Part shown: positions 68-14,764 of the stretch, piece by piece | How positions within the stretch are numbered: the first letter of the stretch is position 1 | Layout: every line of letters starts with the position of its first letter | DNA from: Microbacterium terregens | GTDB lineage: Bacteria > Actinomycetota > Actinomycetes > Actinomycetales > Microbacteriaceae | Assembly: GCF_039534975.1 (NCBI RefSeq) | Contig: NZ_BAAAWH010000004.1 | Location: forward strand, 1 to 14,764 | DNA: 14,764 bases | Reading direction: 5' to 3' | Made by a program: the position numbers and the translations under genes | Notes under the pieces: generated by a model | Databases searched by the model: none | What the model saw: the letters and a program-made list of their open reading frames with translations, nothing else | Told to the model about the DNA's origin: nothing

Positions 68-835
68 TGAATCCCCCGACGTTGGGACGACCGCGAGAGC
101 GTGTCGCCGGTGCACATCGCGGAGCGCGTCGCCGAAACATCGACCGGCTGTTCACGACCATCGACGAATGGCGCGATCTCCTGCAGGCGCACCTCGCCGC
201 GGATCACGCTCCGAACGCCCGCGACGCTCGATCCGCTCGTGGAGGCGTTCGCCGTTCCGGCGCTCGCCGCCGATGGTCTCGTCACGGGGGCCGGTTTCGT
301 GGCCGCCCCCGGAGTTCTCTCCGATGCGCACTGGCATCTTGCCTGGTGGCTCGGCGGAGGTGACGGCATCCGTCGTCTTGCCACGGTGGACGATCCAGCG
401 AGCGATCAGTTCCGCGACTACACGGCGCTGGAGTGGTGGCGCCTGCCCGCCAAGACCGGAAACCGCCATGTGACCGGGCCGTACGTGGACTACGTGTGTG
501 CACGACGACTACACCGTCACCATCACCAGCCCGGTCGTCGTGGATGACCGGCTGCTGGGCGTCGTCGGCACCGACGTGCTCGTGGACCGGCTCGAGCACG
601 AGCTGCTGCCTCTGCTGCGGGCCGGCGACGAGTCGATCGCGGTCGTCAACGCGTCGGGCCGGATCGTCACGGCGACCGACGCACGCCGAGAGCCCGGATC
701 CATGCTGAGGCTGGCGGATCTGGCTGACGCACTGATCCCCCTGCGCGACTCTCAGCCCGTGCGCACACGGCTTGCGGCCGGAGTCGAGGTCATCGCGTGC
801 GGGATACGTCGCTCGCGCTCGTGGTGGGCATCTAG
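67..835 (+). CDS. Cache-domain sensor-like protein (left copy, several frameshifts)
   Basis: After correction this encodes about 256 residues starting [20 protein letters not shown] and ending ALVVGI. The C-terminal half contains the pattern [32 protein letters not shown], which resembles the ligand-binding PDC/Cache fold of extracellular small-molecule sensors. There is no visible signal peptide, membrane segment or output domain, so it may be a free-standing sensor; the ligand is unknown. The start is ATG at 67 after a strong GGAGGGAG ribosome site and overlaps the TGA of the upstream frame. The left copy is broken by an extra C (about 73-77), a missing A (about 135), an extra C (217-220), a scrambled TGTGTGCACG (about 495-505) and a missing G (about 801). 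The last three are corrected by the right arm. The first two rest on coding continuity alone. Confidence 0.75.
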
Positions 836-907
836 CCGCTACCGGCGAGCGCAGACGGTCACGTCGTCTTCGGTCGCGCACTCCGGCGTCGCTGACGGCT
901 GGCGTGC

Positions 908-1512
908 TCAGCGCCCGCCGGCCCCGGCATCCGTTGTTTCCCACATCGCTGCGGTGGAAATTCTGGAATGAGCGGGATGCCGTCGGCCCCCGTTGGCCCT
1001 GATACCGATTGCCGTAGGGGCCCGAGCCGTAGGGGTTCTCCGTCGGCGAGGACAGGCGGAAGAAGCACAACTGGCCGATCTTCATGCCCGGCCACAGCTT
1101 GATCGGCAGGGTCGCTACGTTCGACAGCTCGAGGGTCACGTGGCCGGTGAATCCCGGGTCGATGAATCCGGCGGTGGAGTGCGTCAGCAGTCCGAGCCGC
1201 CGAGCGAGGACTTGCCCTCGAGCCGGGCCGCGATGTCGTCCGGGAGCGTGATGAGCTCGAACGTGCTGCCGAGGACGAACTCGCCGGGGTGCAGGATGAA
1301 CGCTCCAGCGGGGTGGTCTCGATCAGGTGCGTCAGCTCGGGTTGGTCCTCGGCCGGATCGATGAACGGATACTTGTGGTTGTCGAAGAGCCGGAAGTAGC
1401 GATCCAGTCGCACGTCCACACTCGACGGCTGGACCATCTCGGGTTCCCACGGCTCGAGCCCGATGCGTCGGGCGTCGATCTCGAGGCGGATGTCGCGGTC
1501 TGAGAGCAGCAC
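908..1512 (-). CDS. dcd: dCTP deaminase (left copy, frameshifted)
   Basis: This is the mirror copy of the gene at 13440-14044. It lacks one base at about 1300-1303 (after HLIETTPLE) and one at about 1198-1202 (after GKSSLG), and has an extra A at 937-939 near the C-terminus. It carries the correct five-G run that the right arm lost, giving [20 protein letters not shown]. Because each break is repaired by the other arm, the gene is almost certainly intact in the organism and neither copy is a true pseudogene. Confidence 0.93.
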
Positions 1513-1518
1513 GCCGCA

Positions 1519-1524
1519 AGCCTA
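1519..1524 (-). promoter_or_regulatory. Candidate -10 box of dcd (leaderless)
   Basis: On the minus strand TAGGCT ends six bases before the GTG start of dcd, with no Shine-Dalgarno sequence between. The TANNNT shape and spacing fit a leaderless promoter, where transcription starts at the start codon. The right arm reads TAGCTT at 13429-13434 with one G missing. There is no convincing -35. Confidence 0.4.
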
Positions 1525-1560
1525 GCGAGCATCCGTTGGGGTGGGATGCCGCTGCCTCCG

Positions 1561-1641
1561 TCGTCGTCCGCCGCTCCCTTGTCATCGTCTGCCGCTCCCC
1601 TGTCGTCGGCTCCCCCGTCGTCGTCGGCCGCTCCCCTGTCG
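1561..1641 (+). repeat. Codon-phased 21-base tandem repeat upstream of dcd (left copy)
   Basis: Units start at 1561, 1582, 1603 and 1618, with lengths 21, 21, 15 and 21, followed by a partial unit. Read on the plus strand each full unit is SSSAAPL; the 15-base unit is SSAPP. Most differences between units are synonymous in this frame (TCC/TCT/TCG, TCG/TCA, TTG/CTG). The array lies between dcd and the tRNA gene. The plus-strand frame runs on into the tRNA gene, so a protein product is doubtful. Confidence 0.75.
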
Positions 1642-1722
1642 CGATCGGCGCGCCCGACGACGTGTTGTGACAGCCGAGCGCTCGACGTACGTCGCGCGGG
1701 CTCGGCGCCGTGGAGCTTTTGT

Positions 1723-1728
1723 TATGCT
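1723..1728 (+). promoter_or_regulatory. Candidate -10 box of tRNA-Gly
   Basis: TATGCT lies 22 bases before the mature tRNA 5' end, which would give a leader of roughly 16 bases. The surrounding AT-rich stretch GCTTTTGTTATGCT stands out in GC-rich DNA and is preserved in the right arm. No good -35 is visible at 17 bases upstream. Confidence 0.35.
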
Positions 1729-1750
1729 GGCTCCGCGCCTCACGGCGTGC

Positions 1751-1824
1751 GGGGATGTAGTTCAATGGCAGAACTTCAGCTTCCCAAGCTGATAGCGCGG
1801 GTTCGATTCCCGTCATCCCCTCCA
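1751..1824 (+). tRNA. tRNA-Gly, anticodon CCC (intact copy)
   Basis: The sequence folds as a complete cloverleaf. The acceptor is GGGGATG paired with CATCCCC, the D-stem is GTTC/GAAC, and the anticodon stem TCAGC/GCTGA encloses the loop TTCCCAA. The T-arm carries the loop TTCGATT between GCGGG and CCCGT, followed by discriminator T and an encoded CCA at 1822-1824. The loop places CCC at positions 34-36, reading GGG glycine codons. It stands alone, with the 3' end of the 160-aa membrane protein gene downstream on the other strand. Confidence 0.95.
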
Positions 1825-2017
1825 ATGTGAGTTCTCACGCGGGTTGAGACATTCGCGGCCTCGTTGAGACCCTCGAGACTGCACGATCTCAGCGCCGACA
1901 GGTTCGGACCGCCGATCCTCCCAGTGCGCGCGAATATGGGTAGGCCGGAAAGCGCAAGCGCTGCCACCGAGCGACGAGAGCCCACTCACGGCCTCGCCGC
2001 TTTTCCGGCCTCGTTGG
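1825..2017. other. Intergenic region between tRNA-Gly and membrane protein gene
   Basis: These 193 bases hold a short direct repeat TTGAGAC (1844-1850 and 1864-1870) just after the tRNA and a small GTGAG-TT-CTCAC dyad at 1827-1838. No T-run follows the dyad, so it is not a clear terminator. The two arms disagree at several bases here (for example GGCCGGAAAAGCGG versus GGGTGACCAGCGG near the far end), so sequence-level claims are unsafe. The mirror region is 12950-13144. Confidence 0.5.
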
Positions 2018-2500
2018 TCACCCCGCGGGTCGGACCAGAACGAGCCAGGCTCCGATGACACCGCCGATGAATGCGACCAGAGCCGCGATTGCGACCAGGA
2101 ACAGCCCAGCAGTGAACCCCAACAGGAGCCCTGTGCCGCCGAGGAGTATCAGTGCCGCGGTCGTGATGTTCGGGTTCAGCTTCTCCAGAATCCGCTCGAG
2201 TGGTGCGACGGTGGCCGCCCGCTCGGCACGACTGCCCAGCACGATCAGGGATGCCGCCATGAGTAGCGAGACGGCGATCAGCTCTACCCCGAGGATCCAT
2301 CCGGCAGGGTTCGGCAGTGCTATCGCGATGCTTGCGGCCAGTACGCCTACGAAGATGGTCAGAATCTGTGCGAGGCGAGCACGCAGCACCTTCGACTGGG
2401 CGATGTGCTCCGCGCGAACCGACACGGCAACGAAGAGAAGACCCACAAGCGCTGCAGACGCGCCACCCGTGATGACCGCGAAGTCTGTCCAACCTGCCAT
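2018..2500 (-). CDS. 160-aa integral membrane protein, function unknown (left copy, correct)
   Basis: The protein is strongly hydrophobic, with likely membrane segments at about 6-28, 44-62, 68-88, 112-132 and 133-156. The opening MAGWTDFAVITGGASAALVG, with its small-residue first helix leading to LLFVAVSVRAEHI, resembles a widespread group of small uncharacterised bacterial membrane proteins. A short cytosolic stretch, RAERAATVAPLERILEKL (91-108), separates the helix pairs. The start is the ATG at 2498-2500. Upstream in-frame extensions exist but lack hydrophobic or conserved character, and a TANNNT box lies just before this ATG. It is transcribed divergently from the 75-aa gene at 2772. No function can be assigned. 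Confidence 0.8.
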   Translation of the reverse strand: MAGWTDFAVITGGASAALVGLLFVAVSVRAEHIAQSKVLRARLAQILTIFVGVLAASIAIALPNPAGWILGVELIAVSLLMAASLIVLGSRAERAATVAPLERILEKLNPNITTAALILLGGTGLLLGFTAGLFLVAIAALVAFIGGVIGAWLVLVRPAG

Positions 2501-2771
2501 GGCGCCAACGGTACCGCTCTGCACCGGATTCAGAACCGCGCGGCGGTCATGGGGTTGAGCGCTAGTCCGAGAATCAGATCCGACGCCCTGACGAACTGTC
2601 GGCTTGCTCCCGGCCCGTCTTGCGCCTGACGGCCCGTCGGACAACCCGGGCCGCCACGCGATTCACGCTCCGCGATGCGCTGGCGTCTCGCGGTAGCGGT
2701 CGAGCTCGCGGGGACGATGGCTCGACGGCTGTCACCTTACGGTCGGCGCCCATCGATGACAGTCTGAGCGG
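2501..2771. other. Divergent intergenic region
   Basis: These 271 bases separate the 160-aa membrane protein gene (minus) from the 75-aa gene (plus). I see no credible coding frame. It must hold both promoters: a leaderless-type box next to 2500, and possibly TACGGT at 2738-2743 for the 75-aa gene. The stretch at 2615-2655 is rich in short GGCC/GACGG inverted words but forms no single convincing hairpin. Confidence 0.5.
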
Positions 2772-2999
2772 ATGAAAACCATCGAGTGGTGGCCGCTGCT
2801 GGACGGTGACGCGCAGGCGTGGCTGATTGCCCACAACGGCGACGCCGTCTCCACAGAGGTCTTGAGCAAGATCGTGGCAGCAGGCGGGTCATTGACATCG
2901 GACGCGTGGTGGATCGGTGAAGCCGGAACCGAGGGGTTCTATCTCTCCGACGAAGCAGTCGACTGGATCGAAGCGACCGCGAACGACGAGTCTGCCTGA
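2772..2999 (+). CDS. 75-aa protein of unknown function (left copy)
   Basis: This is a small acidic soluble protein, MKTIEWWPLLDGDAQAWLIA, ending VDWIEATANDESA. It has five tryptophans in 75 residues and a tract AAGGSLTSDAWWIGEAGTEG that could be a compact strand-turn fold. It is identical in both arms, which supports it being real and correctly read. GAGCGG just before the ATG is a weak ribosome site. I do not recognise a family. The next gene on the same strand is 180 bases away, so it is probably its own transcription unit. Confidence 0.65.
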   Translation: MKTIEWWPLLDGDAQAWLIAHNGDAVSTEVLSKIVAAGGSLTSDAWWIGEAGTEGFYLSDEAVDWIEATANDESA

Positions 3000-3089
3000 T
3001 CGCGTTCCCGGCCGACGCACTTGCGCCACAGGGGCAGGAGATTCGGCCGGGACAGCGGACCTCATCAAGGCGCACCGGGGTATCACCGA

Positions 3090-3111
3090 GATCACTCAAG
3101 ACTTGGTGATC
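3090..3111. promoter_or_regulatory. 22-base interrupted palindrome upstream of the DUF1232 gene
   Basis: GATCAC at 3090-3095 and GTGATC at 3106-3111 are perfect inverses, and the interior CAAG-A-CTTG continues the dyad with one bulged T. It lies 69-90 bases before the DUF1232 start and 90 bases after the 75-aa gene. The mirror at 11855-11876 is identical. It could be an operator or a weak terminator of the upstream gene; no T-run follows. Confidence 0.4.
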
Positions 3112-3179
3112 GCTGTGAACTTGCAGTCAAACTTCCGCAGCAGTCCGGCATTGTTCACGTCCTGGCGCACACTGGGCGA

Positions 3180-3455
3180 ATGTGGTGGAGTTTCCTCAAG
3201 GCCGTCAAGAGGCGGCAGCATCGCGTCGCGCCGACGACGTGGGTCGCCGCGATCGCCGCTGTCATCTACACGTTCGCGCCGATCGACCTGATCCCCGAAC
3301 TTGTACTCGGCCCCTTGGGCTTCGTAGACGACATCGGCCTCTGGGGTATCTTCGCCATCCTCCTCACGCGCGAGCAGCGGCGGTGGCTGACCGGACTCTC
3401 GCAGAGAGCGCCTGACGCGCGCGATCTCGGGAACCGCCCGCCGGCTCATCCCTGA
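3180..3455 (+). CDS. DUF1232 (YkvA-like) small membrane protein (left copy)
   Basis: This 91-residue protein has the DUF1232 signature. A hydrophobic segment WVAAIAAVIYTFAPIDLIPE (21-40) carries the conserved Y-x3-P-x-DLIPE motif, followed by GPLGFVDDIGLWG (44-56), where the paired aspartates typical of the family appear, and a second hydrophobic stretch. A basic N-terminus (KAVKRRQH) precedes the first helix, and the C-terminal tail is polar. The role of the family is not established. The start is ATG at 3180, immediately before MWWSFLKAVK; the frame is open further upstream but without recognisable sequence. It is identical in both arms. The S4-domain gene follows in the same direction after 77 bases. 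Confidence 0.85.
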   Translation: MWWSFLKAVKRRQHRVAPTTWVAAIAAVIYTFAPIDLIPELVLGPLGFVDDIGLWGIFAILLTREQRRWLTGLSQRAPDARDLGNRPPAHP

Positions 3456-3494
3456 CGGCTGTCATAGGTCGCGTGACCTTGCGCGGAACCCGAC

Positions 3495-3512
3495 GGTCCT
3501 GCGGGCAGGACC
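3495..3512. promoter_or_regulatory. Perfect 8+8 dyad over the S4-gene promoter
   Basis: GGTCCTGC and GCAGGACC are exact inverses separated by GG. The dyad covers the position expected for the -35 element if TAGCAT at 3521-3526 is the -10, so a bound repressor there would block the promoter. It is unchanged in the right arm (11454-11471). As a hairpin it could also end the upstream DUF1232 transcript, but no T-run follows. Confidence 0.45.
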
Positions 3513-3520
3513 TGGTCGGC

Positions 3521-3526
3521 TAGCAT
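3521..3526 (+). promoter_or_regulatory. Candidate -10 box of the S4-domain gene (leaderless)
   Basis: TAGCAT is followed by six bases and the ATG at 3533, with no Shine-Dalgarno sequence in between. The arrangement matches actinobacterial leaderless promoters. The mirror box is at 11440-11445. Confidence 0.45.
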
Positions 3527-3532
3527 TCCGGC

Positions 3533-3760
3533 ATGACGAACCCGGCTCCGATCGACGACGTTCCGATCGGCGGCGAGATCATCCGCCTCGGGCAGTTCCT
3601 GAAGTTCGCTGGGCTCCTCGACTCCGGTGGAGACGTCAAAGAGGCCATCATCGACGGCTACGTGAGCGTGAACGGCGAGGTCGACCGTCGCCGCGGACGG
3701 CAGCTTCAGCTCGGCGACATCGTCACCTTCGAGGGGCGCAGGGTCCGCGTCTGCCCGTGA
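3533..3760 (+). CDS. S4-domain RNA-binding protein, YbcJ-like (left copy)
   Basis: This is a 75-residue protein that is almost entirely one S4 domain. IRLGQFLKFAGLLDSGGDVK (about 16-35) forms the helix pair, and AIIDGYVSVNGEVDRRRGRQ (about 37-56) with LQLGDIVTF follows. This is the standard R-L-x-QFLK / SGG / G-x-V-x-VNGE / RRGRQL pattern of the small stand-alone S4 proteins (YbcJ type). These are thought to bind structured RNA, possibly ribosomal, in the cytosol. The Arg/Lys face is intact. It starts at ATG 3533 behind a TANNNT box without a ribosome site. It is identical in both arms and converges on the 155-aa unknown gene with 58 bases between the two stops. Confidence 0.9.
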   Translation: MTNPAPIDDVPIGGEIIRLGQFLKFAGLLDSGGDVKEAIIDGYVSVNGEVDRRRGRQLQLGDIVTFEGRRVRVCP

Positions 3761-3818
3761 GGGCGCCGGTCCCCAACGGGGGCGGGTATCGGGAACCCTC
3801 GATTGAGCCTCGTCGCCC

Positions 3819-4286
3819 TCAGCTCCCGTACCACTCGCCCGAGTTCGCCCCACGGCGGTGGTGGATTCTTCCTCCATCGATGGGGGCGGTTTCGTGACCG
3901 GCCAGATCGTGCACCCAGGGCGGCTGCTGGTCCATGGTCACCGACCCTGCGCCTGTCGTGAAGTAGGCGACGATCGGAGGGCTCGCGACGAACTCGGTCG
4001 CGATGATGGCCGCACCGGGAATGCGGACCAGCGCGTTGCGCGCGTGCAGATCGCGCATGAGCACGGCGAACTCGTTCGGGTCGTCGGATGCCGGTTCCTG
4101 CGGGGCGACGGGCAACTCCGAGCGCAACTGGCCGACGATCTCCCGCCGTTGCGCTGCGGAAAGCCGCGTGTAGGCGGCCGCGTACGCTCTGTCGGCGATA
4201 CTCGCGGGAACGTTCCCGAGGACATAGGCATACCGAGCGATCCGCTCGTCTTCGCTGATGGCGTGTTCTGCGTGGCGCCTTTTCAC
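3819..4286 (-). CDS. 155-aa protein of unknown function (left copy, intact)
   Basis: This is a soluble-looking protein with two parts. The first is a helical N-terminal half, SEDERIARYAYVLGNVPASI to RREIVGQLRSELP (11-59). After a Pro/Asp-rich hinge (60-72) comes a more compact part, NEFAVLMRDLHARNALVRIP and AAIIATEFVASPPIVAYFTT (71-111), followed by a His/Gly-rich tail ending GEWYGS. The GTG start (complement of 4284-4286) is chosen because AGGAG lies six bases upstream and a -35/-10 pair lies further upstream. A much longer open frame on this strand extends to 4694 but is only antisense to the next gene. I do not recognise the family. The frame is clean here and broken in the right arm. Confidence 0.7.
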   Translation of the reverse strand: MKRRHAEHAISEDERIARYAYVLGNVPASIADRAYAAAYTRLSAAQRREIVGQLRSELPVAPQEPASDDPNEFAVLMRDLHARNALVRIPGAAIIATEFVASPPIVAYFTTGAGSVTMDQQPPWVHDLAGHETAPIDGGRIHHRRGANSGEWYGS

Positions 4287-4435
4287 TGTCGCTCCTGGGT
4301 GATGAGCGTCAGCGTACGCCCGCCCGGACGCCCTGTCGATGGCGCACTGATCGCAGATCGAGGCGCTCGCGGGCGCCCTCGACCTGGTCAGCGGGATCAC
4401 CGGGATCCTTCGCCGGATCAGCCCGCCGGCTCCGA

Positions 4436-4978
4436 TCAGGCTTGCGTCGAGGTCGTGTCTGCCTTCGCAAGGAGGCGTCGCACACCTCCGCGGGCGAGCA
4501 TGAGAACGATGATCAGCGCGGTCACCTGGAAGAAGCCGCCGAGGCGGACGGCGTCGCCGAAAACGAGCGCGACCAGCTCGAGCACGAGGAACTTGCTCCC
4601 CGGAAGCACAAGCAGGAGAGTGATCGCACTGACGATGCGAACCGCGGATGTCTTGGCCGTCCGGATCCTGTTCACGATCTTCTTCTTCGCCCACAGCACC
4701 ACCTCGAGTACGACCTTCAGCAGGATCGCGGTCAGAAGGGCCAACAAGAACGATTCGGAGATGACGTCCGGGAACAGCTGGATGAAGACTCCGAGCACCA
4801 CCAGGTAGATCAGGACATCGACGAGGTCGATCGGACGGACACGCACCCAGGGAGTGTATCGACGGGCCCGTCGGACGAATGCCCGCAGGTCGATCCTCAC
4901 CGGGGACGTGTCGTCACGAGCCGCATCGATTCCGGATCGCACGACGCGGAATGCCGCGTCGACCGCCGTCGTTGCCAC
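4436..4978 (-). CDS. 180-aa membrane protein, function unknown (left copy)
   Basis: The first 45 residues are soluble and arginine-rich (FVRRARRYTPWVRVRP). Hydrophobic segments follow at about 51-70 (LVDVLIYLVVLGVFIQLF), 76-97 (FLLALLTAILLKVVLEVVLW), 113-142 and 148-162. KKKIVNRIRTAK (98-109) is a basic cytosolic loop. I do not recognise the family. The GTG start gives MATTAVDAAFR; the ribosome site is weak, so a later start is possible. It is divergent from the acetyltransferase across 77 bases. Both arms give the same protein over all 180 residues. Confidence 0.75.
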   Translation of the reverse strand: MATTAVDAAFRVVRSGIDAARDDTSPVRIDLRAFVRRARRYTPWVRVRPIDLVDVLIYLVVLGVFIQLFPDVISESFLLALLTAILLKVVLEVVLWAKKKIVNRIRTAKTSAVRIVSAITLLLVLPGSKFLVLELVALVFGDAVRLGGFFQVTALIIVLMLARGGVRRLLAKADTTSTQA

Positions 4979-5055
4979 AGTGGCCTGTCCGGATCATCGC
5001 GGAACCCGATCACGCAGCCAGCCGGCGGGCAACAGCGAACCGGAGCACGCCAGAC

Positions 5056-5759
5056 ATGACAGAAGTCCTATCCCCTCATCACGATGCCACCGTGCTCGAC
5101 AATGCCGCCTGGCACGCGCTGTCCGGTCCCCACGCGCGCTTCGCGGAGGGTGATGACCTGGTGCGCCGCTACCAGTCCGACGTCGCCCCCTTCGTGGCGG
5201 TGCGGAGTTGGGATGATGCGCGGGTATGGGATTCACTGATCGACCTGGTCGGACACGGGGCGGAGATCGGTCTGTCCGGCGGTGTGCCCGATTTCCCCGA
5301 TGGCTGGGAGGAATTGTGGCGCGGCGAAGGAGTGCAGCTCGTCGAGACCGACGCGCTCCACCCGGTACCGGACCCAGAAACTGTCCTCCTCGGGGTGGCC
5401 GACGTGCCGGAGATGCTCGCGCTGGTCGAACGCAACCAGCCTGGCCCCTTCCTGCCGCGCACGCATGAACTCGGGCGCTACATCGGATTCCGTCGCGAAG
5501 GGCGTCTCGTGGCGATGGCGGGCGAGCGCCTGCACCCGGCTGGCTGGACAGAGATCAGTGCGGTCTCCACCGACGATGCGTACCGGCGGCAGGGGCTGGC
5601 ATCACGGCTCGTGCTGGATGCCGCGTTCCACATCCAGCAGCGGGAGACCGTGCGCTCATGCACGCGGCGGCGACGAATGTCGGAGCGATCGCGGCATACG
5701 AGCGTCTCGGCTTCGCGCTTCGCTCGCGCACGACGTTTGCCGGGGTCCGCGTTCCCTGA
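5056..5759 (+). CDS. GNAT-family N-acetyltransferase (left copy, one-base deletion)
   Basis: This is the mirror of 9207-9911. One G is missing from the run at 5642-5644, just after FHIQQR, so the last 38 or so residues, including the NVGAIAAYERLGF motif, fall out of frame. The N-terminal 196 residues match the right arm. The ATG at 5056 is preceded by CGGAGC as a modest ribosome site. Confidence 0.88.
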
Positions 5760-5789
5760 CCGGGATGAGGACAACCGCGGCCGCGAGGA

Positions 5790-6259
5790 TCAGCCCTGTA
5801 AGCCGAGCCGCCAGCGCACGGTGGCTCGAGCCACGACCTCGCCGCTGCGGTCGATGCAGTCAGCAGTGACGTCGAAATCCGTGTCCCCTGTGACCGCGGG
5901 CGCGGTGACATGACACACCGCGCGGATGGAGCCACGCGCCTTCTTGAAGTACTGCACCGACATCGCGGAGACGATGCCTCGGGTGCCGTCGGGAAGGTCC
6001 GTCAGCAGCGCGAGACCACTGGCCTGCTCCGCGACGTTAACGAGCGCCACGGCGTGGACAGAGCCAAGGTGCTGCCGGTTGGCGCGCCGGTCCGGGATTT
6101 CGACCTCGGCGTGACCTGGCGCGAGTACGCGGATGTGCGGGCGCACCGACCGCGAATAGGGCACGCGCCAGCCGAAGATCAGGGAGAAGAGCCAGGTGCC
6201 GCGGGCAGCGGGCTCAGCCGGCGCCACAGTCGCAGGAGGACCTTCCCGGGAGATCGCAT
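5790..6259 (-). CDS. DUF4442-type hotdog-fold protein (left copy, one-base deletion)
   Basis: This is the mirror of 8706-9176. A C is missing at about 6198-6202 (GCCGCGGG instead of GCCGCCGGG), so the first 20 residues MRSPGKVLLRLWRRLSPLPG are out of frame with GTWLFSLIFGWRVPY onward. The remainder is identical to the right arm. Confidence 0.83.
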
Positions 6260-6354
6260 AGGAAGATGCTGGCCTTCGCACCGACGCCGCCTAATCGCCG
6301 TCTCACGTTCACGCGGTTCCCGCAGCGACGAAGGGCTGTGCCGGTAGGGCTGCG

Positions 6355-6677
6355 TCAGTCCGCGGACGCCATGTCCGCCACCTCTCGCACGGTGTCGGCG
6401 ACCTCCTCGGGAATCGCCGCCTCCATGAAGTGTGGGGAATCCACACTGCGGAGTTCGCCGGCGCGAAGCGGTCCACGAACGTCTGCAGGACACCGGGATA
6501 TCGGGCGGCATACTCCGGAGTCGCCCAGCTGTACTCCACGCGCGGCTCCGCCGCGGCCGCCAGATAGATCATCGGGACGGCAGGCTGGAGACTGATGGCC
6601 GGATTGACGTGCAGCACCCCCCTTCCGGTGCCCCGGTCGGCTTTCGGGCGGTCGCCGCGCCGACCAGTCGCGGTCAT
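6355..6677 (-). pseudogene. C-terminal remnant of an alpha/beta hydrolase (left copy)
   Basis: This mirror of 8287-8609 has the same length (323 bases, one short of a whole number of codons) and the same frame break before VDSPHFMEAAIP. Here the ATG overlaps the TGA of the SRPBCC gene (ATGA, 6674-6677), giving normal translational coupling. Agreement of both arms makes the break more likely to be in the DNA itself. Confidence 0.65.
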
Positions 6678-7519: not shown

Positions 7520-7788
7520 CGGCCGCCGGTCTGCGCGCGCCGCTAGCGCTTCCCATCCCTCGCGCCGTCGACATCATCGATGTCGTACAGAGCGCTCCGA
7601 CGTTCAACGCATACCGGGCCCGCGGCTGGCAGCTCGTGGAATTCAAAGCATGGAGCTTTCACGTGCTCACCGAATGCCTGCTGCCTCTGCCGACTCGAGC
7701 CGCGACGAGAGCCGCTGATGCGGCCGCCACCGTCGGGGTCACCTTCAGTGACCTCGTCGAACGCGACGGACAGGCCGCCGCTACCTGA
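7444..7788 (+). CDS. C-terminal part of an unidentified protein, cut at the fold-back (right copy)
   Basis: An open frame runs from the spacer to TGA 7786-7788: AAAGVFADIDHRRREAFTRI, then VTAAGLRAPLALPIPRAVDI, FNAYRARGWQLVEFKAWSFH and a tail ending VERDGQAAAT. The N-terminus is missing because the fold-back point lies upstream. The mainly helical composition and position directly ahead of an SRPBCC gene would suit the C-terminal domain of a TetR-type regulator, but I see no diagnostic motif and leave it unassigned. It is in an operon with the SRPBCC gene (15-base gap, GAAGGAG ribosome site for that gene). The longer overlapping frames through the centre are products of the artificial join. 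Confidence 0.55.
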   Translation, partial: RSTPAAAGVFADIDHRRREAFTRIVTAAGLRAPLALPIPRAVDIIDVVQSAPTFNAYRARGWQLVEFKAWSFHVLTECLLPLPTRAATRAADAAATVGVTFSDLVERDGQAAAT

Positions 7789-7803
7789 AGAAGGAGAAGC
7801 AGC
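7789..7803 (+). promoter_or_regulatory. Ribosome binding site deciding the SRPBCC start
   Basis: GAAGAAGGAG in the 15-base gap between the two genes places a strong AAGGAG seven bases before ATG 7804. It fixes the start MITYVKTRR and shows translation follows directly after the upstream gene. It is preserved in the left arm at 7160-7174. Confidence 0.7.
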
Positions 7804-8290
7804 ATGATCACCTACGTCAAGACCCGACGCGTCAACCGCAGCGCAGAAGCTGCTTTCGATGTCATCGGAACGCATGTCTTCGAGAATCATCCGCGGTGGG
7901 AAGCTGAAGTCGTCGCAATACGACGTCTCGACGACGGCCCAGCGGGAGTGGGCGGCCGGGCCGTGATGGTCCGGTCCGAGCACGGGCGAACGAGCGAGAC
8001 GGCATACTCGATCACCGAGTTCGACCCTCCGCGGCGGATCGCGTTCGACCATCCCGGATCGCCGCTGGGCTTCGCGCTCTCGACGACGATCACACCGGTG
8101 TCGTCGACATCCTGCGACGTCACCACGCGAGTCACCATGCAACCGCGCGGCTGGGTACGGCTGCTTGAGCCCCTCCTCCGACTCGGCTCAGCTCGCCGCG
8201 GAGATCGACTGACGTCAGAGCAGGCGCGGGTCATCGAGCAGTCCACTTCGGCAGTATCCACGATCGATTCAAAGGAGCCGGCAGCAATGA
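7804..8290 (+). CDS. SRPBCC / polyketide-cyclase-like protein (right copy, stop lost)
   Basis: This is the mirror of 6674-7159. The internal region FENHPRWEAEVVAIRRLDDG is the correct version. Near the end, CCGGCAGCAATG replaces the left-arm CCGGAGCAATG. The extra C removes the stop and joins the frame to the hydrolase remnant, giving an apparent 283-residue fusion to 8655. The overlap form in the left arm is the more typical gene arrangement, so I place the end at the expected TGA (8288-8290). Confidence 0.78.
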
Positions 8291-8609
8291 CCGCGACTGG
8301 TCGGCGCGGCGACCGCCCGAAAGCCGACCGGGGCACCGGAAGGGGGGTGCTGCACGTCAATCCGGCCATCAGTCTCCAGCCTGCCGTCCCGATGATCTAT
8401 CTGGCGGCCGCGGCGGAGCCGCGCGTGGAGTACAGCTGGGCGACTCCGGAGTATGCCGCCCGATATCCCGGTGTCCTGCAGACGTTCGTGGACCGCTTCG
8501 CGCCGGCGAACTCCGCAGTGTGGATTCCCCACACTTCATGGAGGCGGCGATTCCCGAGGAGGTCGCCGACACCGTGCGAGAGGTGGCGGACATGGCGTCC
8601 GCGGACTGA
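8287..8609 (+). pseudogene. C-terminal remnant of an alpha/beta hydrolase (right copy)
   Basis: The start ATG at 8287 has AAAGGAG upstream. The frame reads to FVDRFAPANSAV, then breaks near 8518-8520. One base later the sequence VDSPHFMEAAIPEEVADTVREVADMASAD runs to TGA 8607-8609. That segment is the classic end of an alpha/beta hydrolase, with the catalytic His in SPHF, and PMIYLAAAAEP resembles the preceding strand near the catalytic acid. With one G restored (GTGGTGGAT) the product would be 107 residues. The nucleophile elbow G-x-S-x-G and the whole N-terminal half of a hydrolase are absent; the basic leader MTATGRRGDRPKADRGTGRG replaces them. The same break occurs in both arms, unlike the other frameshifts here, so it may be real decay. 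Confidence 0.65.
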
Positions 8610-8705
8610 CGCAGCCCTACCGGCACAGCCCTTCGTCGCTGCGGGAACCGCGTGAACGTGAGACGGCGATTAGGCGGCGTCGGTGCGAAGGGCCAGCATC
8701 TTCCT

Positions 8706-9176
8706 ATGCGATCTCCCGGGAAGGTCCTCCTGCGACTGTGGCGCCGGCTGAGCCCGCTGCCCGGCGGCACCTGGCTCTTCTCCCTGATCTTCGGCTGGCG
8801 CGTGCCCTATTCGCGGTCGGTGCGCCCGCACATCCGCGTACTCGCGCCAGGTCACGCCGAGGTCGAAATCCCGGACCGGCGCGCCAACCGGCAGCACCTT
8901 GGCTCTGTCCACGCCGTGGCGCTCGTTAACGTCGCGGAGCAGGCCAGTGGTCTCGCGCTGCTGACGGACCTTCCCGACGGCACCCGAGGCATCGTCTCCG
9001 CGATGTCGGTGCAGTACTTCAAGAAGGCGCGTGGCTCCATCCGCGCGGTGTGTCATGTCACCGCGCCCGCGGTCACAGGGGACACGGATTTCGACGTCAC
9101 TGCTGACTGCATCGACCGCAGCGGCGAGGTCGTGGCTCGAGCCACCGTGCGCTGGCGGCTCGGCTTACAGGGCTGA
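8706..9176 (+). CDS. DUF4442-type hotdog-fold thioesterase-like protein (right copy, intact)
   Basis: This 156-residue protein is predicted to adopt the hotdog fold of acyl-CoA thioesterases. Key stretches are FGWRVPYSRSVRPHIRVLAP (29-48), AEVEIPDRRANRQHLGSVHA (51-70) and VALVNVAEQASGLALL (71-86). The latter two are the N-x2-H-x-GS-x-H-A and N-x-AE-x-A-G motifs of the DUF4442 group that line the active-site helix. The C-terminal strands ARGSIRAVCHVTAP and EVVARATVRWRLG complete the fold. The acyl substrate is unknown. It starts at ATG 8706, 96 bases after the hydrolase remnant on the same strand, so it may be transcribed with it. It is frameshifted in the left arm. Confidence 0.85.
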   Translation: MRSPGKVLLRLWRRLSPLPGGTWLFSLIFGWRVPYSRSVRPHIRVLAPGHAEVEIPDRRANRQHLGSVHAVALVNVAEQASGLALLTDLPDGTRGIVSAMSVQYFKKARGSIRAVCHVTAPAVTGDTDFDVTADCIDRSGEVVARATVRWRLGLQG

Positions 9177-9206
9177 TCCTCGCGGCCGCGGTTGTCCTCA
9201 TCCCGG

Positions 9207-9911
9207 TCAGGGAACGCGGACCCCGGCAAACGTCGTGCGCGAGCGAAGCGCGAAGCCGAGACGCTCGTATGCCGCGATCGCTCCGACATTCGTCGCCGCC
9301 GCGTGCATGAGCGCACGGTCTCCCCGCTGCTGGATGTGGAACGCGGCATCCAGCACGAGCCGTGATGCCAGCCCCTGCCGCCGGTACGCATCGTCGGTGG
9401 AGACCGCACTGATCTCTGTCCAGCCAGCCGGGTGCAGGCGCTCGCCCGCCATCGCCACGAGACGCCCTTCGCGACGGAATCCGATGTAGCGCCCGAGTTC
9501 ATGCGTGCGCGGCAGGAAGGGGCCAGGCTGGTTGCGTTCGACCAGCGCGAGCATCTCCGGCACGTCGGCCACCCCGAGGAGGACAGTTTCTGGGTCCGGT
9601 ACCGGGTGGAGCGCGTCGGTCTCGACGAGCTGCACTCCTTCGCCGCGCCACAATTCCTCCCAGCCATCGGGGAAATCGGGCACACCGCCGGACAGACCGA
9701 TCTCCGCCCCGTGTCCGACCAGGTCGATCAGTGAATCCCATACCCGCGCATCATCCCAACTCCGCACCGCCACGAAGGGGGCGACGTCGGACTGGTAGCG
9801 GCGCACCAGGTCATCACCCTCCGCGAAGCGCGCGTGGGGACCGGACAGCGCGTGCCAGGCGGCATTGTCGAGCACGGTGGCATCGTGATGAGGGGATAGG
9901 ACTTCTGTCAT
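9207..9911 (-). CDS. GNAT-family N-acetyltransferase (right copy, intact)
   Basis: This is predicted to transfer an acetyl group from acetyl-CoA to an amine or related acceptor in the cytosol; the substrate is unknown. The 234-residue protein has a divergent N-terminal half and a C-terminal GNAT domain. RYIGFRREGRLVAMAGERLH (141-160) gives the central strands, and EISAVSTDDAYRRQGLASRL (166-185) contains the acetyl-CoA pyrophosphate loop R-R-Q-G-L-A (177-182). NVGAIAAYERLGF (208-220) is the usual final motif with its conserved Tyr and GF. The layout resembles the FR47-like subgroup. The start is ATG at 9909-9911. It converges on the DUF4442 gene, with 30 bases between stops. Confidence 0.9.
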   Translation of the reverse strand: MTEVLSPHHDATVLDNAAWHALSGPHARFAEGDDLVRRYQSDVAPFVAVRSWDDARVWDSLIDLVGHGAEIGLSGGVPDFPDGWEELWRGEGVQLVETDALHPVPDPETVLLGVADVPEMLALVERNQPGPFLPRTHELGRYIGFRREGRLVAMAGERLHPAGWTEISAVSTDDAYRRQGLASRLVLDAAFHIQQRGDRALMHAAATNVGAIAAYERLGFALRSRTTFAGVRVP

Positions 9912-9988
9912 GTCTGGCGTGCTCCGGTTCGCTGTTGCCCGCCGGCTGGCTGCGTGATCGGGTTCCGCGATGATCCGGACAGGCCACT

Positions 9989-10531
9989 GTGGCAACGACG
10001 GCGGTCGACGCGGCATTCCGCGTCGTGCGATCCGGAATCGATGCGGCTCGTGACGACACGTCCCCGGTGAGGATCGACCTGCGGGCATTCGTCCGACGGG
10101 CCCGTCGATACACTCCCTGGGTGCGTGTCCGTCCGATCGACCTCGTCGATGTCCTGATCTACCTGGTGGTGCTCGGAGTCTTCATCCAGCTGTTCCCGGA
10201 CGTCATCTCCGAATCGTTCTTGTTGGCCCTTCTGACCGCGATCCTGCTGAAGGTCGTACTCGAGGTGGTGCTGTGGGCGAAGAAGAAGATCGTGAACAGG
10301 ATCCGGACGGCCAAGACATCCGCGGTTCGCATCGTCAGTGCGATCACTCTCCTGCTTGTGCTTCCGGGGAGCAAGTTCCTCGTGCTCGAGCTGGTCGCGC
10401 TCGTTTTCGGCGACGCCGTCCGCCTCGGCGGCTTCTTCCAGGTGACCGCGCTGATCATCGTTCTCATGCTCGCCCGCGGAGGTGTGCGACGCCTCCTTGC
10501 GAAGGCAGACACGACCTCGACGCAAGCCTGA
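9989..10531 (+). CDS. 180-aa membrane protein, function unknown (right copy)
   Basis: This mirror copy of 4436-4978 has the identical translation, ending AKADTTSTQA. It is followed by 149 bases holding short inverted words and the promoter of the 155-aa gene, so the two genes are probably not co-transcribed. Confidence 0.75.
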   Translation: MATTAVDAAFRVVRSGIDAARDDTSPVRIDLRAFVRRARRYTPWVRVRPIDLVDVLIYLVVLGVFIQLFPDVISESFLLALLTAILLKVVLEVVLWAKKKIVNRIRTAKTSAVRIVSAITLLLVLPGSKFLVLELVALVFGDAVRLGGFFQVTALIIVLMLARGGVRRLLAKADTTSTQA

Positions 10532-10627
10532 TCGGAGCCGGCGGGCTGATCCGGCGAAGGATCCCGGTGATCCCGCTGACCAGGTCGAGGGCGCCCGCGA
10601 GCGCCTCGATCTGCGATCAGTGCGCCA

Positions 10628-10656
10628 TCGACAGGGCGTCCGGGCGGGCGTACGCT
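10628..10656 (+). promoter_or_regulatory. -35/-10 promoter of the 155-aa gene
   Basis: TCGACA (10628-10633) and TACGCT (10651-10656) are separated by exactly 17 bases. They lie 24 bases before the GTG start, whose ribosome site is AGGAG at 10671-10675. The pair matches TTGACA at five of six positions and the TANNNT core, and is unchanged in the left arm (4311-4339). It is the best conventional promoter in the window. Confidence 0.55.
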
Positions 10657-10680
10657 GACGCTCATCACCCAGGAGCGACA

Positions 10681-11147
10681 GTGAAAAGGCCCACGCAGAA
10701 CACGCCATCAGCGAAGACGAGCGGATCGCTCGGTATGCCTATGTCCTCGGGAACGTTCCCGCGAGTATCGCCGACAGAGCGTACGCGGCCGCCTACACGC
10801 GGCTTTCCGCAGCGCAACGGCGGGAGATCGTCGGCCAGTTGCGCTCGGAGTTGCCCGTCGCCCCGCAGGAACCGGCATCCGACGACCCGAACGAGTTCGC
10901 CGTGCTCATGCGCGATCTGCACGCGCGCAACGCGCTGGTCCGCATTCCCGGTGCGGCCATCATCGCGACCGAGTTCGTCGCGAGCCCTCCGATCGTCGCC
11001 TACTTCACGACAGGCGCAGGGTCGGTGACCATGGACCAGCAGCCGCCCTGGGTGCACGATCTGGCCGGTCACGAAACCGCCCCCATCGATGGAGGAAGAA
11101 TCCACCACCGCCGTGGGGCGAACTCGGGCGAGTGGTACGGGAGCTGA
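10681..11147 (+). CDS. 155-aa protein of unknown function (right copy, frameshifted near start)
   Basis: This is the mirror of 3819-4286. A base is lost at 10688-10692 (GGCCCACG instead of GGCGCCACG), so the GTG-initiated frame departs after three codons and the body of the protein resumes in another frame. Everything from EHAISEDERIARYAYVLG to GEWYGS is otherwise the same as the left arm, so this is a read error in a real gene. Confidence 0.7.
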
Positions 11148-11205
11148 GGGCGACGAGGCTCAATCGAGGGTTCCCGATACCCGCCCCCGTTGGGGACCGG
11201 CGCCC

Positions 11206-11433
11206 TCACGGGCAGACGCGGACCCTGCGCCCCTCGAAGGTGACGATGTCGCCGAGCTGAAGCTGCCGTCCGCGGCGACGGTCGACCTCGCCGTTCACGC
11301 TCACGTAGCCGTCGATGATGGCCTCTTTGACGTCTCCACCGGAGTCGAGGAGCCCAGCGAACTTCAGGAACTGCCCGAGGCGGATGATCTCGCCGCCGAT
11401 CGGAACGTCGTCGATCGGAGCCGGGTTCGTCAT
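11206..11433 (-). CDS. S4-domain RNA-binding protein, YbcJ-like (right copy)
   Basis: This mirror copy of 3533-3760 has the same 75-residue translation, with IRLGQFLKF, SGGDVKEAI, VSVNGEVDRRRGRQL and GDIVTFEGRRVRV all present. The upstream dyad and TANNNT box are also preserved. Confidence 0.9.
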   Translation of the reverse strand: MTNPAPIDDVPIGGEIIRLGQFLKFAGLLDSGGDVKEAIIDGYVSVNGEVDRRRGRQLQLGDIVTFEGRRVRVCP

Positions 11434-11510
11434 GCCGGAATGCTAGCCGACCAGGTCCTGCCCGCAGGACCGTCGGGTTCCGCGCAAGGTCACGCGACCT
11501 ATGACAGCCG

Positions 11511-11786
11511 TCAGGGATGAGCCGGCGGGCGGTTCCCGAGATCGCGCGCGTCAGGCGCTCTCTGCGAGAGTCCGGTCAGCCACCGCCGCTGCTCGCGCGT
11601 GAGGAGGATGGCGAAGATACCCCAGAGGCCGATGTCGTCTACGAAGCCCAAGGGGCCGAGTACAAGTTCGGGGATCAGGTCGATCGGCGCGAACGTGTAG
11701 ATGACAGCGGCGATCGCGGCGACCCACGTCGTCGGCGCGACGCGATGCTGCCGCCTCTTGACGGCCTTGAGGAAACTCCACCACAT
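11511..11786 (-). CDS. DUF1232 (YkvA-like) small membrane protein (right copy)
   Basis: This mirror copy of 3180-3455 gives the same 91-residue translation, including YTFAPIDLIPE and GFVDDIGLWG. There are no arm-specific errors within the frame. Confidence 0.85.
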   Translation of the reverse strand: MWWSFLKAVKRRQHRVAPTTWVAAIAAVIYTFAPIDLIPELVLGPLGFVDDIGLWGIFAILLTREQRRWLTGLSQRAPDARDLGNRPPAHP

Positions 11787-11966
11787 TCGCCCAGTGTGCG
11801 CCAGGACGTGAACAATGCCGGACTGCTGCGGAAGTTTGACTGCAAGTTCACAGCGATCACCAAGTCTTGAGTGATCTCGGTGATACCCCGGTGCGCCTTG
11901 ATGAGGTCCGCTGTCCCGGCCGAATCTCCTGCCCCTGTGGCGCAAGTGCGTCGGCCGGGAACGCGA

Positions 11967-12194
11967 TCAGGCAGACTCGTCGTTCGCGGTCGCTTCGATC
12001 CAGTCGACTGCTTCGTCGGAGAGATAGAACCCCTCGGTTCCGGCTTCACCGATCCACCACGCGTCCGATGTCAATGACCCGCCTGCTGCCACGATCTTGC
12101 TCAAGACCTCTGTGGAGACGGCGTCGCCGTTGTGGGCAATCAGCCACGCCTGCGCGTCACCGTCCAGCAGCGGCCACCACTCGATGGTTTTCAT
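11967..12194 (-). CDS. 75-aa protein of unknown function (right copy)
   Basis: This mirror copy of 2772-2999 gives the same 75-residue translation, from MKTIEWWPLL to NDESA. Agreement of two independently erroneous strands over the full frame is good evidence that the frame is genuine. Confidence 0.65.
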   Translation of the reverse strand: MKTIEWWPLLDGDAQAWLIAHNGDAVSTEVLSKIVAAGGSLTSDAWWIGEAGTEGFYLSDEAVDWIEATANDESA

Positions 12195-12453
12195 CCGCTC
12201 AGACTGTCATCGATGGGCGCCGACCGTAAGGTGACAGCCGTCGAGCCATCGTCCCCGCGAGCTCGACCGCTACCGCGAGACGCCAGCGCATCGCGGAGCG
12301 TGAATCGCGTGGCGGCCCGGGTTGTCCGACGGGCCGTCAGGCGCAAGACGGGCCGGGAGCAAGCCGACAGTTCGTCAGGGCGTCGGATCTGATTCCTCGG
12401 ACTAGCGCTCAACCCCATGACCGCCGCGCGGTTCTGAATCCGGTGCAGAGCGG

Positions 12454-12459
12454 TACCGT
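12454..12459 (+). promoter_or_regulatory. Candidate -10 box of the 160-aa membrane protein (leaderless)
   Basis: TACCGT is followed by seven bases and then the ATG at 12467, with no Shine-Dalgarno sequence. The same layout is present in the left arm, where the mirror box is at about 2508-2513. The TANNNT match and spacing fit leaderless transcription. The -35 is not recognisable. Confidence 0.4.
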
Positions 12460-12466
12460 TGGCGCC

Positions 12467-12949
12467 ATGGCAGGTTGGACAGACTTCGCGGTCATCACGG
12501 GTGGCGCGTCTGCAGCGCTTGTGGGTCTTCTCTTCGTTGCCGTGTCGGTTCGCGCGGAGCACATCGCCCAGTCGAAGGTGCTGCGTGCTCGCCTCGCACA
12601 GATTCTGACCATCTTCGTAGGCGTACTGGCCGCAAAGCATCGCGATAGCACTGCCGAACCCTGCCGGATGATCCTCGGGGTAGAGCTGATCGCCGTCTCG
12701 CTACTCATGGCGGCATCCCTGATCGTGCTGGGCAGTCGTGCCGAGCGGGCGGCCACCGTCGCACCACTCGAGCGGATTCTGGAGAAGCTGAACCCGAACA
12801 TCACGACCGCGGCACTGATACTCCTCGGCGGCACAGGGCTCCTGTTGGGGTTCACTGCTGGGCTGTTCCTGGTCGCAATCGCGGCTCTGGTCGCATTCAT
12901 CGGCGGTGTCATCGGAGCCTGGCTCGTTCTGGTCCGACCCGCGGGGTGA
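12467..12949 (+). CDS. 160-aa membrane protein (right copy, compensating indels)
   Basis: This is the mirror of 2018-2500 and has the same length because two errors cancel. An extra A at 12634-12636 and a missing G near 12670 replace SIAIALPNPAGW with KHRDSTAEPCRM, destroying the second membrane helix. The left arm reads normally there. This is a clear case where an intact open frame hides a wrong protein segment. Confidence 0.8.
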   Translation: MAGWTDFAVITGGASAALVGLLFVAVSVRAEHIAQSKVLRARLAQILTIFVGVLAAKHRDSTAEPCRMILGVELIAVSLLMAASLIVLGSRAERAATVAPLERILEKLNPNITTAALILLGGTGLLLGFTAGLFLVAIAALVAFIGGVIGAWLVLVRPAG

Positions 12950-13144
12950 CCAACGAGGGTGACCAGCGGCGAGGCCGTGGTGGGCTCTCGTCGCTCGGTG
13001 GCTCTCGCTTGTGCGCTTTCCGCTTCCATATTCGCGCGCACTGGGCAGGTGGATCGGCGGTCCGAACCTGTCGGCGCTGAGATCGTGCAGTCTCGAGGGT
13101 CTCAACGAGGCCGCGAATGTCTCAACCCGCGTGAGAACTCACAT

Positions 13145-13206
13145 TGGAGGCGATGGAAATCGAACCCGCTTCAGTGGGAAGCTGAAGTTCTGCCACTACA
13201 TCATCG
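13145..13206 (-). tRNA. tRNA-Gly(CCC), corrupted mirror copy
   Basis: This is the counterpart of 1751-1824 but shorter by about a dozen bases. The anticodon-to-T-arm segment and the D-arm have deletions, and the acceptor no longer pairs (CTACATCATC instead of CTACATCCCC). The core GGGAAGCTGAAGTTCTGCCA and ATCGAACCCGC survive. Given a perfect copy in the other arm, this is most likely sequencing damage in a strongly structured region rather than a real tRNA pseudogene. Confidence 0.75.
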
Positions 13207-13311
13207 GCCGTGAGGCGCGGAGCCAGCATAACAAAAGCTCCACGGCGCCGAGCCGCGCGACGTACGTCGAGCGCTCGGCTGTCACAACACGTCGTCGGGC
13301 GCGCCGATCGC

Positions 13312-13392
13312 GACAGGGGAGCGGCCGACGACGACGGGGGAGCCGACGACAGGGGAGCGGCAGACGATGACAAGGGAGCGGCGGACGACGAC
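13312..13392 (-). repeat. Codon-phased 21-base tandem repeat upstream of dcd (right copy)
   Basis: This is the mirror of 1561-1641, with units starting at about 13312, 13333, 13348, 13369 and 13390 (spacing 21, 15, 21, 21). Both arms agree through the array, so the repeat and its one short unit are real sequence and not a read error. On the dcd-sense strand it would read as Asp/Gly/Ala-rich heptads ([14 protein letters not shown]), where one difference between units is Arg to Lys. Confidence 0.75.
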
Positions 13393-13439
13393 GGAGGCAG
13401 CGGCATCGCCACCCCAACGGATGCTCGCTAGCTTGCGGC

Positions 13440-14044
13440 GTGCTGCTCTCAGACCGCGACATCCGCCTCGAGATCGACGCCCGACGCATCGGGCTCGAGC
13501 CGTGGGAACCCGAGATGGTCCAGCCGTCGAGTGTGGACGTGCGACTGGATCGCTACTTCCGGCTCTTCGACAACCACAAGTATCCGTTCATCGATCCGGC
13601 CGAGGACCAACCCGAGCTGACGCACCTGATCGAGACCACCCCGCTGGAGCCGTTCATCCTGCACCCCGGCGAGTTCGTCCTCGGCAGCACGTTCGAGCTC
13701 ATCACGCTCCCGGACGACATCGCGGCCCGGCTCGAGGGCAAGTCCTCGCTCGGCCGGCTCGGACTGCTGACGCACTCCACCGCCGGATTCATCGACCCGG
13801 GATTCACCGGCCACGTGACCCTCGAGCTGTCGAACGTAGCGACCCTGCCGATCAAGCTGTGGCCGGGCATGAAGATCGGCCAGTTGTGCTTCTTCCGCCT
13901 GTCCTCGCCGACGGAGAACCCCTACGGCTCGGGCCCCTACGGCAATCGGTATCAGGGCCAACGGGGCCGACGGCATCCCGCTCATTCCAGAATTTCCACC
14001 GCAGCGATGTGGGAACAACGGATGCCGGGGCCGGCGGGCGCTGA
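13440..14044 (+). CDS. dcd: dCTP deaminase, probable bifunctional dCTP deaminase/dUTPase
   Basis: This enzyme deaminates dCTP and, in the actinobacterial bifunctional form, also hydrolyses the product to dUMP for thymidylate synthesis, while keeping dUTP low. It acts in the cytosol. The protein follows the Mycobacterium Dcd sequence closely: [12 protein letters not shown] at the start, [11 protein letters not shown] (27-37), [10 protein letters not shown] (75-84), [12 protein letters not shown] (99-110), [11 protein letters not shown] (112-122) and LELSN with the expected catalytic Glu at 129. [10 protein letters not shown] spans 141-150 and [16 protein letters not shown] lies near the C-terminus. 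The start is GTG at 13440. One G is missing from GGGG at 13963-13966; the left arm has five. The corrected product is 201 aa, about ten residues longer than the mycobacterial enzyme, ending [22 protein letters not shown] box sits just before the start. Confidence 0.95.
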
Positions 14045-14116
14045 GCACGCCAGCCGTCAGCGACGCCGGAGTGCGCGACCGAAGACGACGTGACCGTCTG
14101 CGCTCGCCGGTAGCGG

Positions 14117-14764
14117 CTAGATGCCCACCACGAGCGCGAGCGACGTATCCCCGCACGCGATGACCTCGACTCCGGCCGCAAGCCGTGTGCGCACGGGCTG
14201 AGAGTCGCGCAGGGGGATCAGTGCGTCAGCCAGATCCGCCAGCCTCAGCATGGATCCGGGCTCTCGGCGTGCGTCGGTCGCCGTGACGATCCGGCCCGAC
14301 GCGTTGACGACCGCGATCGACTCGTCGCCGGCCCGCAGCAGAGGCAGCAGCTCGTGCTCGAGCCGGTCCACGAGCACGTCGGTGCCGACGACGCCCAGCA
14401 GCCGGTCATCCACGACGACCGGGCTGGTGATGGTGACGGTGTAGTCGTCGGTGCACACGTAGTCCACGTACGGCCCGGTCACATGGCGGTTTCCGGTCTT
14501 GGCGGGCAGGCGCCACCACTCCAGCGCCGTGTAGTCGCGGAACTGATCGCTCGCTGGATCGTCCACCGTGGCAAGACGACGGATGCCGTCACCTCCGCCG
14601 AGCCACCAGGCAAGATGCCAGTGCGCATCGGAGAGAACTCCGGGGGCGGCCACGAAACCGGCCCCCGTGACGAGACCATCGGCGGCGAGCGCCGGAACGG
14701 CGAACGCCTCCACGAGCGGATCGAGCGTCGCGGCGTTCGGAGCGTGATCCGCGGCGAGGTGCGC
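14117..14764 (-). CDS. Cache-domain sensor-like protein (right copy, clean, 5' partial)
   Basis: This is the second view of the gene at 67-835. It is open from the window edge to the TAG at 14117-14119, beginning at [17 protein letters not shown], so about the first 40 residues are off the end. It supplies the correct reading through the region that is scrambled on the left ([13 protein letters not shown]) and the correct C-terminus ([16 protein letters not shown]). Family assignment rests on the [10 protein letters not shown] and LLGVVGTDV core of Cache folds. The gene converges on dcd with about 70 bases between the two stops. Confidence 0.75.
   Translation of the reverse strand, partial: AHLAADHAPNAATLDPLVEAFAVPALAADGLVTGAGFVAAPGVLSDAHWHLAWWLGGGDGIRRLATVDDPASDQFRDYTALEWWRLPAKTGNRHVTGPYVDYVCTDDYTVTITSPVVVDDRLLGVVGTDVLVDRLEHELLPLLRAGDESIAVVNASGRIVTATDARREPGSMLRLADLADALIPLRDSQPVRTRLAAGVEVIACGDTSLALVVGI

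Follow-up and report, generated by a model that had tools for sequence, protein, structure and literature searches.

A palindromic contig in the Microbacterium terregens assembly is very probably a folded-back copy of one chromosomal locus

Introduction

Is a contig that reads as one long inverted repeat a part of the genome it is filed with, or a product of making the data? The question is raised by contig NZ_BAAAWH010000004.1 of the Microbacterium terregens assembly GCF_039534975.1, which is analyzed here whole, as a window of 14,764 b, and is called C4 among the seven contigs of the assembly (C1 to C7). It has 66.8% G+C and zero N. By blastn, the window gives a single full-length inverted match to itself, 187-14764 to 14764-187, at 98.88% identity over 14,634 columns with 52 mismatches, 84 gap openings, and 112 gap bases. 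The arms measure 7,257 b on the left and 7,245 b on the right, about a spacer of 76 b at 7444-7519. A first-pass annotation had described this inverted repeat with the coordinates correct, and had preferred a fold-back chimera to a genuine palindromic amplification or a hairpin chromosome end. The assembly totals 3,570,215 b, with tool figures of 99.55% for completeness and 2.54% for contamination; the other contigs that bear on the question are C1 (3,501,489 b, or 3.50 Mb), C2 (12,324 b), and C5 (14,962 b).

The record does contain the inverted repeat, but the organism almost certainly does not. C4 is very probably a false contig, from one DNA molecule folded back in vitro, and not genomic. 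Its sequence stands once and unbroken in C1; it shares its center and an outer end with C5; it folds at a chromosomal loop on a short stem; its errors have a pattern of their own; and C2 is a separate case elsewhere in C1.

Results

The uninterrupted stretch C1 290862-298390 matches both arms of C4, the left at 99.68%, in an alignment of C4 1-7450 to 5863-13314 of the C1 stretch L009, and the right at 99.35%. C4 7436-14764 aligns with C1 298390-291047, the spacer being contiguous with the right arm. The arms of C5 match the same stretch at 99.99% and 99.84%. A search with window 187-4200 returned 37 matches, with the best 40 of 256 candidates scored; the five full-length ones comprise 2 in C4, 2 in C5, and 1 in C1, and the other 32 are short, at about 100 b or less. 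A 201-b query over the center had 6 matches, confined to C4, C5, and the single C1 locus. The first-pass annotation had proposed comparison with a closed genome, and this was run within the same assembly on C1, where the locus is single and unbroken. At E = 1e-5, none of the six small contigs matches the 1-kb flanks, C1 289800-290850 and 298400-299400, and beyond the fold point C1 sequence carries on for at least 5.6 kb in L009. A TetR-family protein of 238 amino acids (Pfam TetR_N, E = 2.3e-14; L009 13040-13756, minus strand) is intact over the fold point in C1, so that the center of symmetry does cut through a gene, as had been noticed at first pass.

The first 21,852 b of C1 match C1 3471727-3493576 at 99.97% over 21,854 columns. 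On this alignment, we take C1 for a circular chromosome of about 3.47 Mb whose 21.85-kb overlap was left untrimmed, a long direct repeat being an improbable alternative. Since its ends overlap, the circular chromosome would close without C4. Past the end overlap, the last 7.9 kb of C1 (3493577-3501489; L032) match C1 1738831-1746742 inverted, and we interpret this tail as a further false join, located where the contig ends.

The fold point has its own anatomy. C1 contains GGCGGCCG, then 75 nt, then the reverse complement CGGCCGCC, a perfect 8-bp inverted repeat whose coordinates are in Table 1. The path of C4 goes through GGCGGCCG, switches to the opposite strand at CGGCCGCC, takes the 75 nt reverse-complemented, and returns along the locus. 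Judged from sequence, this path is that of a snap-back product or its complement. The breakpoints, C1 298307 and 298390, are 83 b apart, and the fold lies within 10% of the contig midpoint (7382), as is expected of foldback reads in PMC12870357. Perfect 8-bp partners 3 to 150 b away are found at 0.90% of positions in the 19-kb region, versus 0.68% in one shuffle; hence, the fold site need not be special.

The second copy, C5, has the same center and loop orientation as C4, and its arms end at C1 290863 and 290866, just 3 b apart. C4 starts at C1 290862, so its outer end is shared with C5 within 4 b, and it lacks 186 b at the other end. Bases 1-186 of C4 are unpaired because the right arm stops short by that length; they match C1 directly, and both mirror copies are present in C5. 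The two contigs differ chiefly by indels, with 19 mismatches, 44 gap openings, and 61 gap bases between them. Because both the center and the outer end are shared, C4 and C5 are best explained as one molecule read or copied twice.

C2 matches its own reverse complement from 9 to 12324 at 99.65%, and matches C1 2624041-2630222 in both directions, with outer ends at C1 2630214 and 2630222, or 8 b apart. Its center is a natural 9-bp perfect hairpin with a 6-nt loop, of which there is a single occurrence in the C1 stretch fetched, at 2624041. From these matches, C2 is a fold-back in its own right, made from a different C1 locus. That one anatomy recurs at two unrelated loci implicates the library and not the locus. 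The hairpin artifacts described in PMC3946424 have a short natural inverted repeat around a loop of genuine sequence, as C4 (8 bp, 75 nt) and C2 (9 bp, 6 nt) both do, and a copied arm that ends where the template strand ends, as is seen in C5 and C2, with the right end of C4 falling 186 b short. A polymerase that copies its own template all the way to the end, or a hairpin-capped fragment, is expected to give co-terminal arms.

Arm differences were counted against C1 with the loop left out. Mismatches and indel events, respectively, number 1 and 18 in the C4 left arm, 9 and 23 in the C4 right arm, 0 and 0 in the C5 left arm, and 0 and 3 in the C5 right arm. The impression at first pass that the arms differ mainly by indels of 1 or 2 bases holds up, with 37 of the 41 indel events in the two C4 arms being of that size, against 10 mismatches. 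No difference from C1 is common to any two of the four C4 and C5 arms (six pairs, the C5 left arm having no differences), and evolved divergence between the arms is rejected on that ground. In C5, with the loop included, there are 9 differences from C1, and 8 of them fall within 7452-7540, near the center; by a binomial calculation, at least 8 of 9 would fall within one given stretch of 95 b with P = 2.4e-17. We take this cluster to mark a junction beyond correction by ordinary reads of the locus. The C4 left arm has 18 differences, mostly near its outer end (11 before position 1303).

The dCTP deaminase gene dcd is present in the assembly five times; the C4 left copy is in three pieces, and those of the C4 right arm, C1, and C5 are intact. 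That conserved genes are broken on one side only, as the first-pass annotation had it, is thus shown for dcd alone. Each of 27 related genomes (own excluded) has one strong dcd match, which in G026 is only a 41-residue fragment, and 4 of the 27 carry one further weak match at 30-33% identity. A natural dcd duplication in the lineage is rejected, the five copies being in this assembly only. The earlier statement that every gene reappears in the second arm stands in general and fails for tRNA-Gly, which ARAGORN recognizes in the left arm only; the right copy lies within an error-dense patch, and its alignment to the C1 gene, 49 columns long with 5 gap bases, is only 86% identical. No mobility or replication family was found among the ten proteins scanned, the remaining proteins being outside the scan, and this agrees with the earlier claim that the arms are without such genes.

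Table 1. Features of the window, with positions in C4.
Feature	Position	Strand	Remarks
Outer end of left arm, mirror copy absent	1..186	+	Matches C1 from 290862 directly; C5 holds mirror copy
Left arm	187..7443	+	C1 ~291047-298307, in C1 orientation; from blastn self-match and C1 comparison
Stem half GGCGGCCG of the 8-bp inverted repeat	7436..7443	+	C1 298300-298307
Spacer, the hairpin loop	7444..7519	.	Reverse complement of C1 298308-298382 (75 nt) plus one inserted C
Other stem half CGGCCGCC	7520..7527	+	C1 298383-298390
Right arm	7520..14764	-	Reverse complement of C1 ~291047-298307
Truncated TetR-family gene piece	7175..7443	-	Gene spans the fold point in C1
Second truncated TetR-family piece, through the loop into the right arm	7436..7788	+	353 columns, 99.7%
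dcd (dCTP deaminase), left copy, with frameshifting indels	859..1512	-	Three separate matches within C4 987-1509
dcd, right copy	13440..14093	+	Single open frame across 175 matched residues
tRNA-Gly (CCC), left copy	1751..1824	+	Identical to the C1 gene
tRNA-Gly remnant, right	13152..13195	-	Missed by ARAGORN
Patch of dense differences from C1, right arm	12958..13254	.	24 of 32 places listed for right arm and loop

Beside dcd there are also short direct repeats of about 30-60 b (81-88%), one set per arm, at window 1547-1641 and 13311-13405.

Among the other small contigs, C6 (10,413 b; L013) and C7 (10,344 b; L014) are co-terminal near copies of each other at 97.3%, with 39 mismatches and 246 gap bases, and have 72% G+C. 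No long match to C1 was found for either. Across 296 genomes of the class (own included, with the best 2 candidates of each genome scored), no foreign match is better than one of 1 kb at 77%, from another family. C6 and C7 may both be low-accuracy reads of a single molecule that came from another actinobacterium. Both contain an imperfect palindrome of 43-44 b, at 6915-6957 of C6 and 6860-6903 of C7. C3 (5,919 b; L012) has 73.9% G+C and no long match to C1 was found, the best being 69% over 0.3 kb; it is possibly a foreign low-coverage contig.

Discussion

The origin that we propose for C4 starts with a chromosomal fragment of about C1 290862-298390 (7.5 kb) that would have had a single-stranded end. 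There, the 8-nt halves GGCGGCCG and CGGCCGCC, 75 nt apart on one strand, would have paired together, and repair enzymes (or an amplification polymerase) would have extended or sealed the fold, so that a 75-nt hairpin loop capped the duplex. The sequencer would then have read along one strand, around the loop, and back along the complementary strand as a single insert. Error correction could have mended much of the arms from ordinary reads of the locus, but not the junction in C5, and an assembler unable to place the product would have left it as contigs C4 and C5; the simplest view is that one molecule was read in two passes or existed in two copies. The in vitro step itself, which free end took part (3' or 5'), the enzyme, the platform, and the two-pass origin are what we infer in this account.

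Published artifacts give several precedents. Among the literature matches listed, there was no paper on this genome; papers on the artifact in general and PMC4134206 were found, and PMC4699355 contributed nothing about fold-backs. According to PMC3946424, short natural inverted repeats form single-strand hairpins that are trimmed, extended, and ligated during library preparation or end repair. The interrupted palindromes of that paper resemble C4 in the short natural inverted repeat, the single-stranded hairpin, the extension or repair of an end on its own strand, and the genuine inner loop, whereas the arms here are 7.2-7.5 kb. PMC12870357 describes foldback reads in long-read genomic DNA, thought to originate in library preparation, and takes near-perfect symmetry as the mark of an artifact because a real event would also yield asymmetric reads. 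Like the foldback reads called there by Breakinator, C4 has its second half on the opposite strand at the same place, breakpoints within 200 b, and a fold near the midpoint; unlike them as they are described, it became an assembly contig, and a defined chromosomal loop and stem are visible in it.

Several points weigh against this origin. CGGCCGCC has a nearer 8-bp partner at C1 298366-298373, with a loop of 9 nt, which should pair more readily. The best predicted fold of the 120 nt around the site is a nearby hairpin and not the one with the 75-nt loop, and the predicted stability is ordinary versus shuffles (z = -0.18, with 86 of 200 shuffles as good). The fold that was fixed is, therefore, not what energy alone would pick. 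The right arm and loop of C4 have 1 of their 32 differences in the loop and 24 at 12958-13254, with no pile-up at the center, unlike C5. The junction is common to two contigs. Finally, in PMC12870357, three PacBio samples were almost without foldbacks and genomic DNA on Oxford Nanopore Technologies (ONT) had about 0.55-0.6%. Separately, a strong cruciform at the fold site was considered and is rejected, with C1 folding there no better than shuffles and a nearer partner existing.

Within the proposed in vitro origin, the snap-back may have happened in whole-genome (multiple displacement) amplification and not in end repair, with the palindrome then present in many copies. Palindromic reads are common after such amplification, at 11.8% and 45.8% in two data sets (PMC6218980) and at 25.6-38.5% of matched reads in five individuals (PMC13265396), and the inverted chimeric long reads of these papers are like ours. 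Amplification would account both for two contigs with the same ends and for the join between loci at the end of C1. With it, fold-backs at further loci and a more fragmented assembly would also be expected. Only two such loci are seen here, C1 is one 3.5-Mb contig, and amplification is undocumented for this sample. Hence, we consider this variant unlikely.

The first-pass annotation had offered two routes, a snap-back and a reading of template and complement as one molecule. The snap-back stands, with its 75-nt chromosomal loop and 8-bp inverted repeat, which point to a hairpin at one fragment end and not to an overlooked adapter. In the latter, both strands of a normal SMRTbell insert are read and the adapter goes unrecognized, leaving a palindromic subread. 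This is a described source of false hairpins and of small spurious contigs in PacBio assemblies (PMC4134206), and C4 and C5 resemble these as small extra contigs, insert plus reverse complement, beside a closed bacterial chromosome. For unamplified PacBio data, in which palindromes amount to 0.5%, the Pacasus authors likewise name false positives and missed or missing adapters as the cause (PMC6218980). Compared with five shuffles of each contig, the SMRTbell adapter sequence scores inside or close to their range in C4, C5, and C2, but that is weak alone because adapter sequence can vanish during read correction (PMC4134206). The stronger point is the spacer itself: its 75 nt are chromosomal, continue directly into one arm, and lie between the halves of an inverted repeat, a loop that a missed adapter would not leave. 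C2 likewise has a genomic loop, of 6 nt. Neither adapter nor a direct join of insert copies was found at the center, and we reject the missed adapter, mainly on the chromosomal loop, as a very improbable source.

The junction would be the same if a minority of cells had a genuine inverted duplication, produced in vivo by template switching at the short inverted repeat. Palindromes are known to arise through in vivo snap-back at such repeats. Random shearing of a real palindrome would, however, give unequal arms, and the arms of C5 and C2 end within 3 and 8 b; by our own arithmetic, each has a chance of about 0.2% or less under uniform shearing. A junction inside longer flanking DNA with independent ends was not found, the C5 and C2 arms being co-terminal and the tested flanks absent. 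The C5 junction is poorly corrected, the same rare event would have to strike at two unrelated loci, and C1 shows the uninterrupted arrangement, which likewise disfavors the genuine palindromic amplification and hairpin chromosome end named as alternatives at first pass. We, therefore, regard a duplication in the cells as hardly probable. Its most specific form, real snap-back duplications at 8- to 9-bp inverted repeats at two loci in few cells, with co-terminal arms by chance or from hairpin-capped linear DNA in the cells, would be just as hard to credit. A palindrome would also be read from a linear replicon or chromosome end closed by a hairpin. The chance of this is negligible, given that C1 does not end at the fold but continues through it for 5.6 kb or more, that its own two ends overlap, and that the ten proteins scanned include no replication or mobility family.

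If C4, C5, and C2 are in vitro fold-backs, some 42 kb of the assembly consists of false copies of two chromosomal loci, and dcd is consequently present five times instead of once. Such contigs create broken, pseudogene-like copies and may inflate estimates of duplication and contamination; C4, C5, and C2 are to be excluded from gene counts. Their signature can be recognized from an assembly without raw reads: the arms end together, the loop between them is chromosomal and sits on a short inverted repeat, and one intact copy of the locus stands elsewhere in the same assembly. For the biology of M. terregens, the finding has little importance; it matters for data quality.

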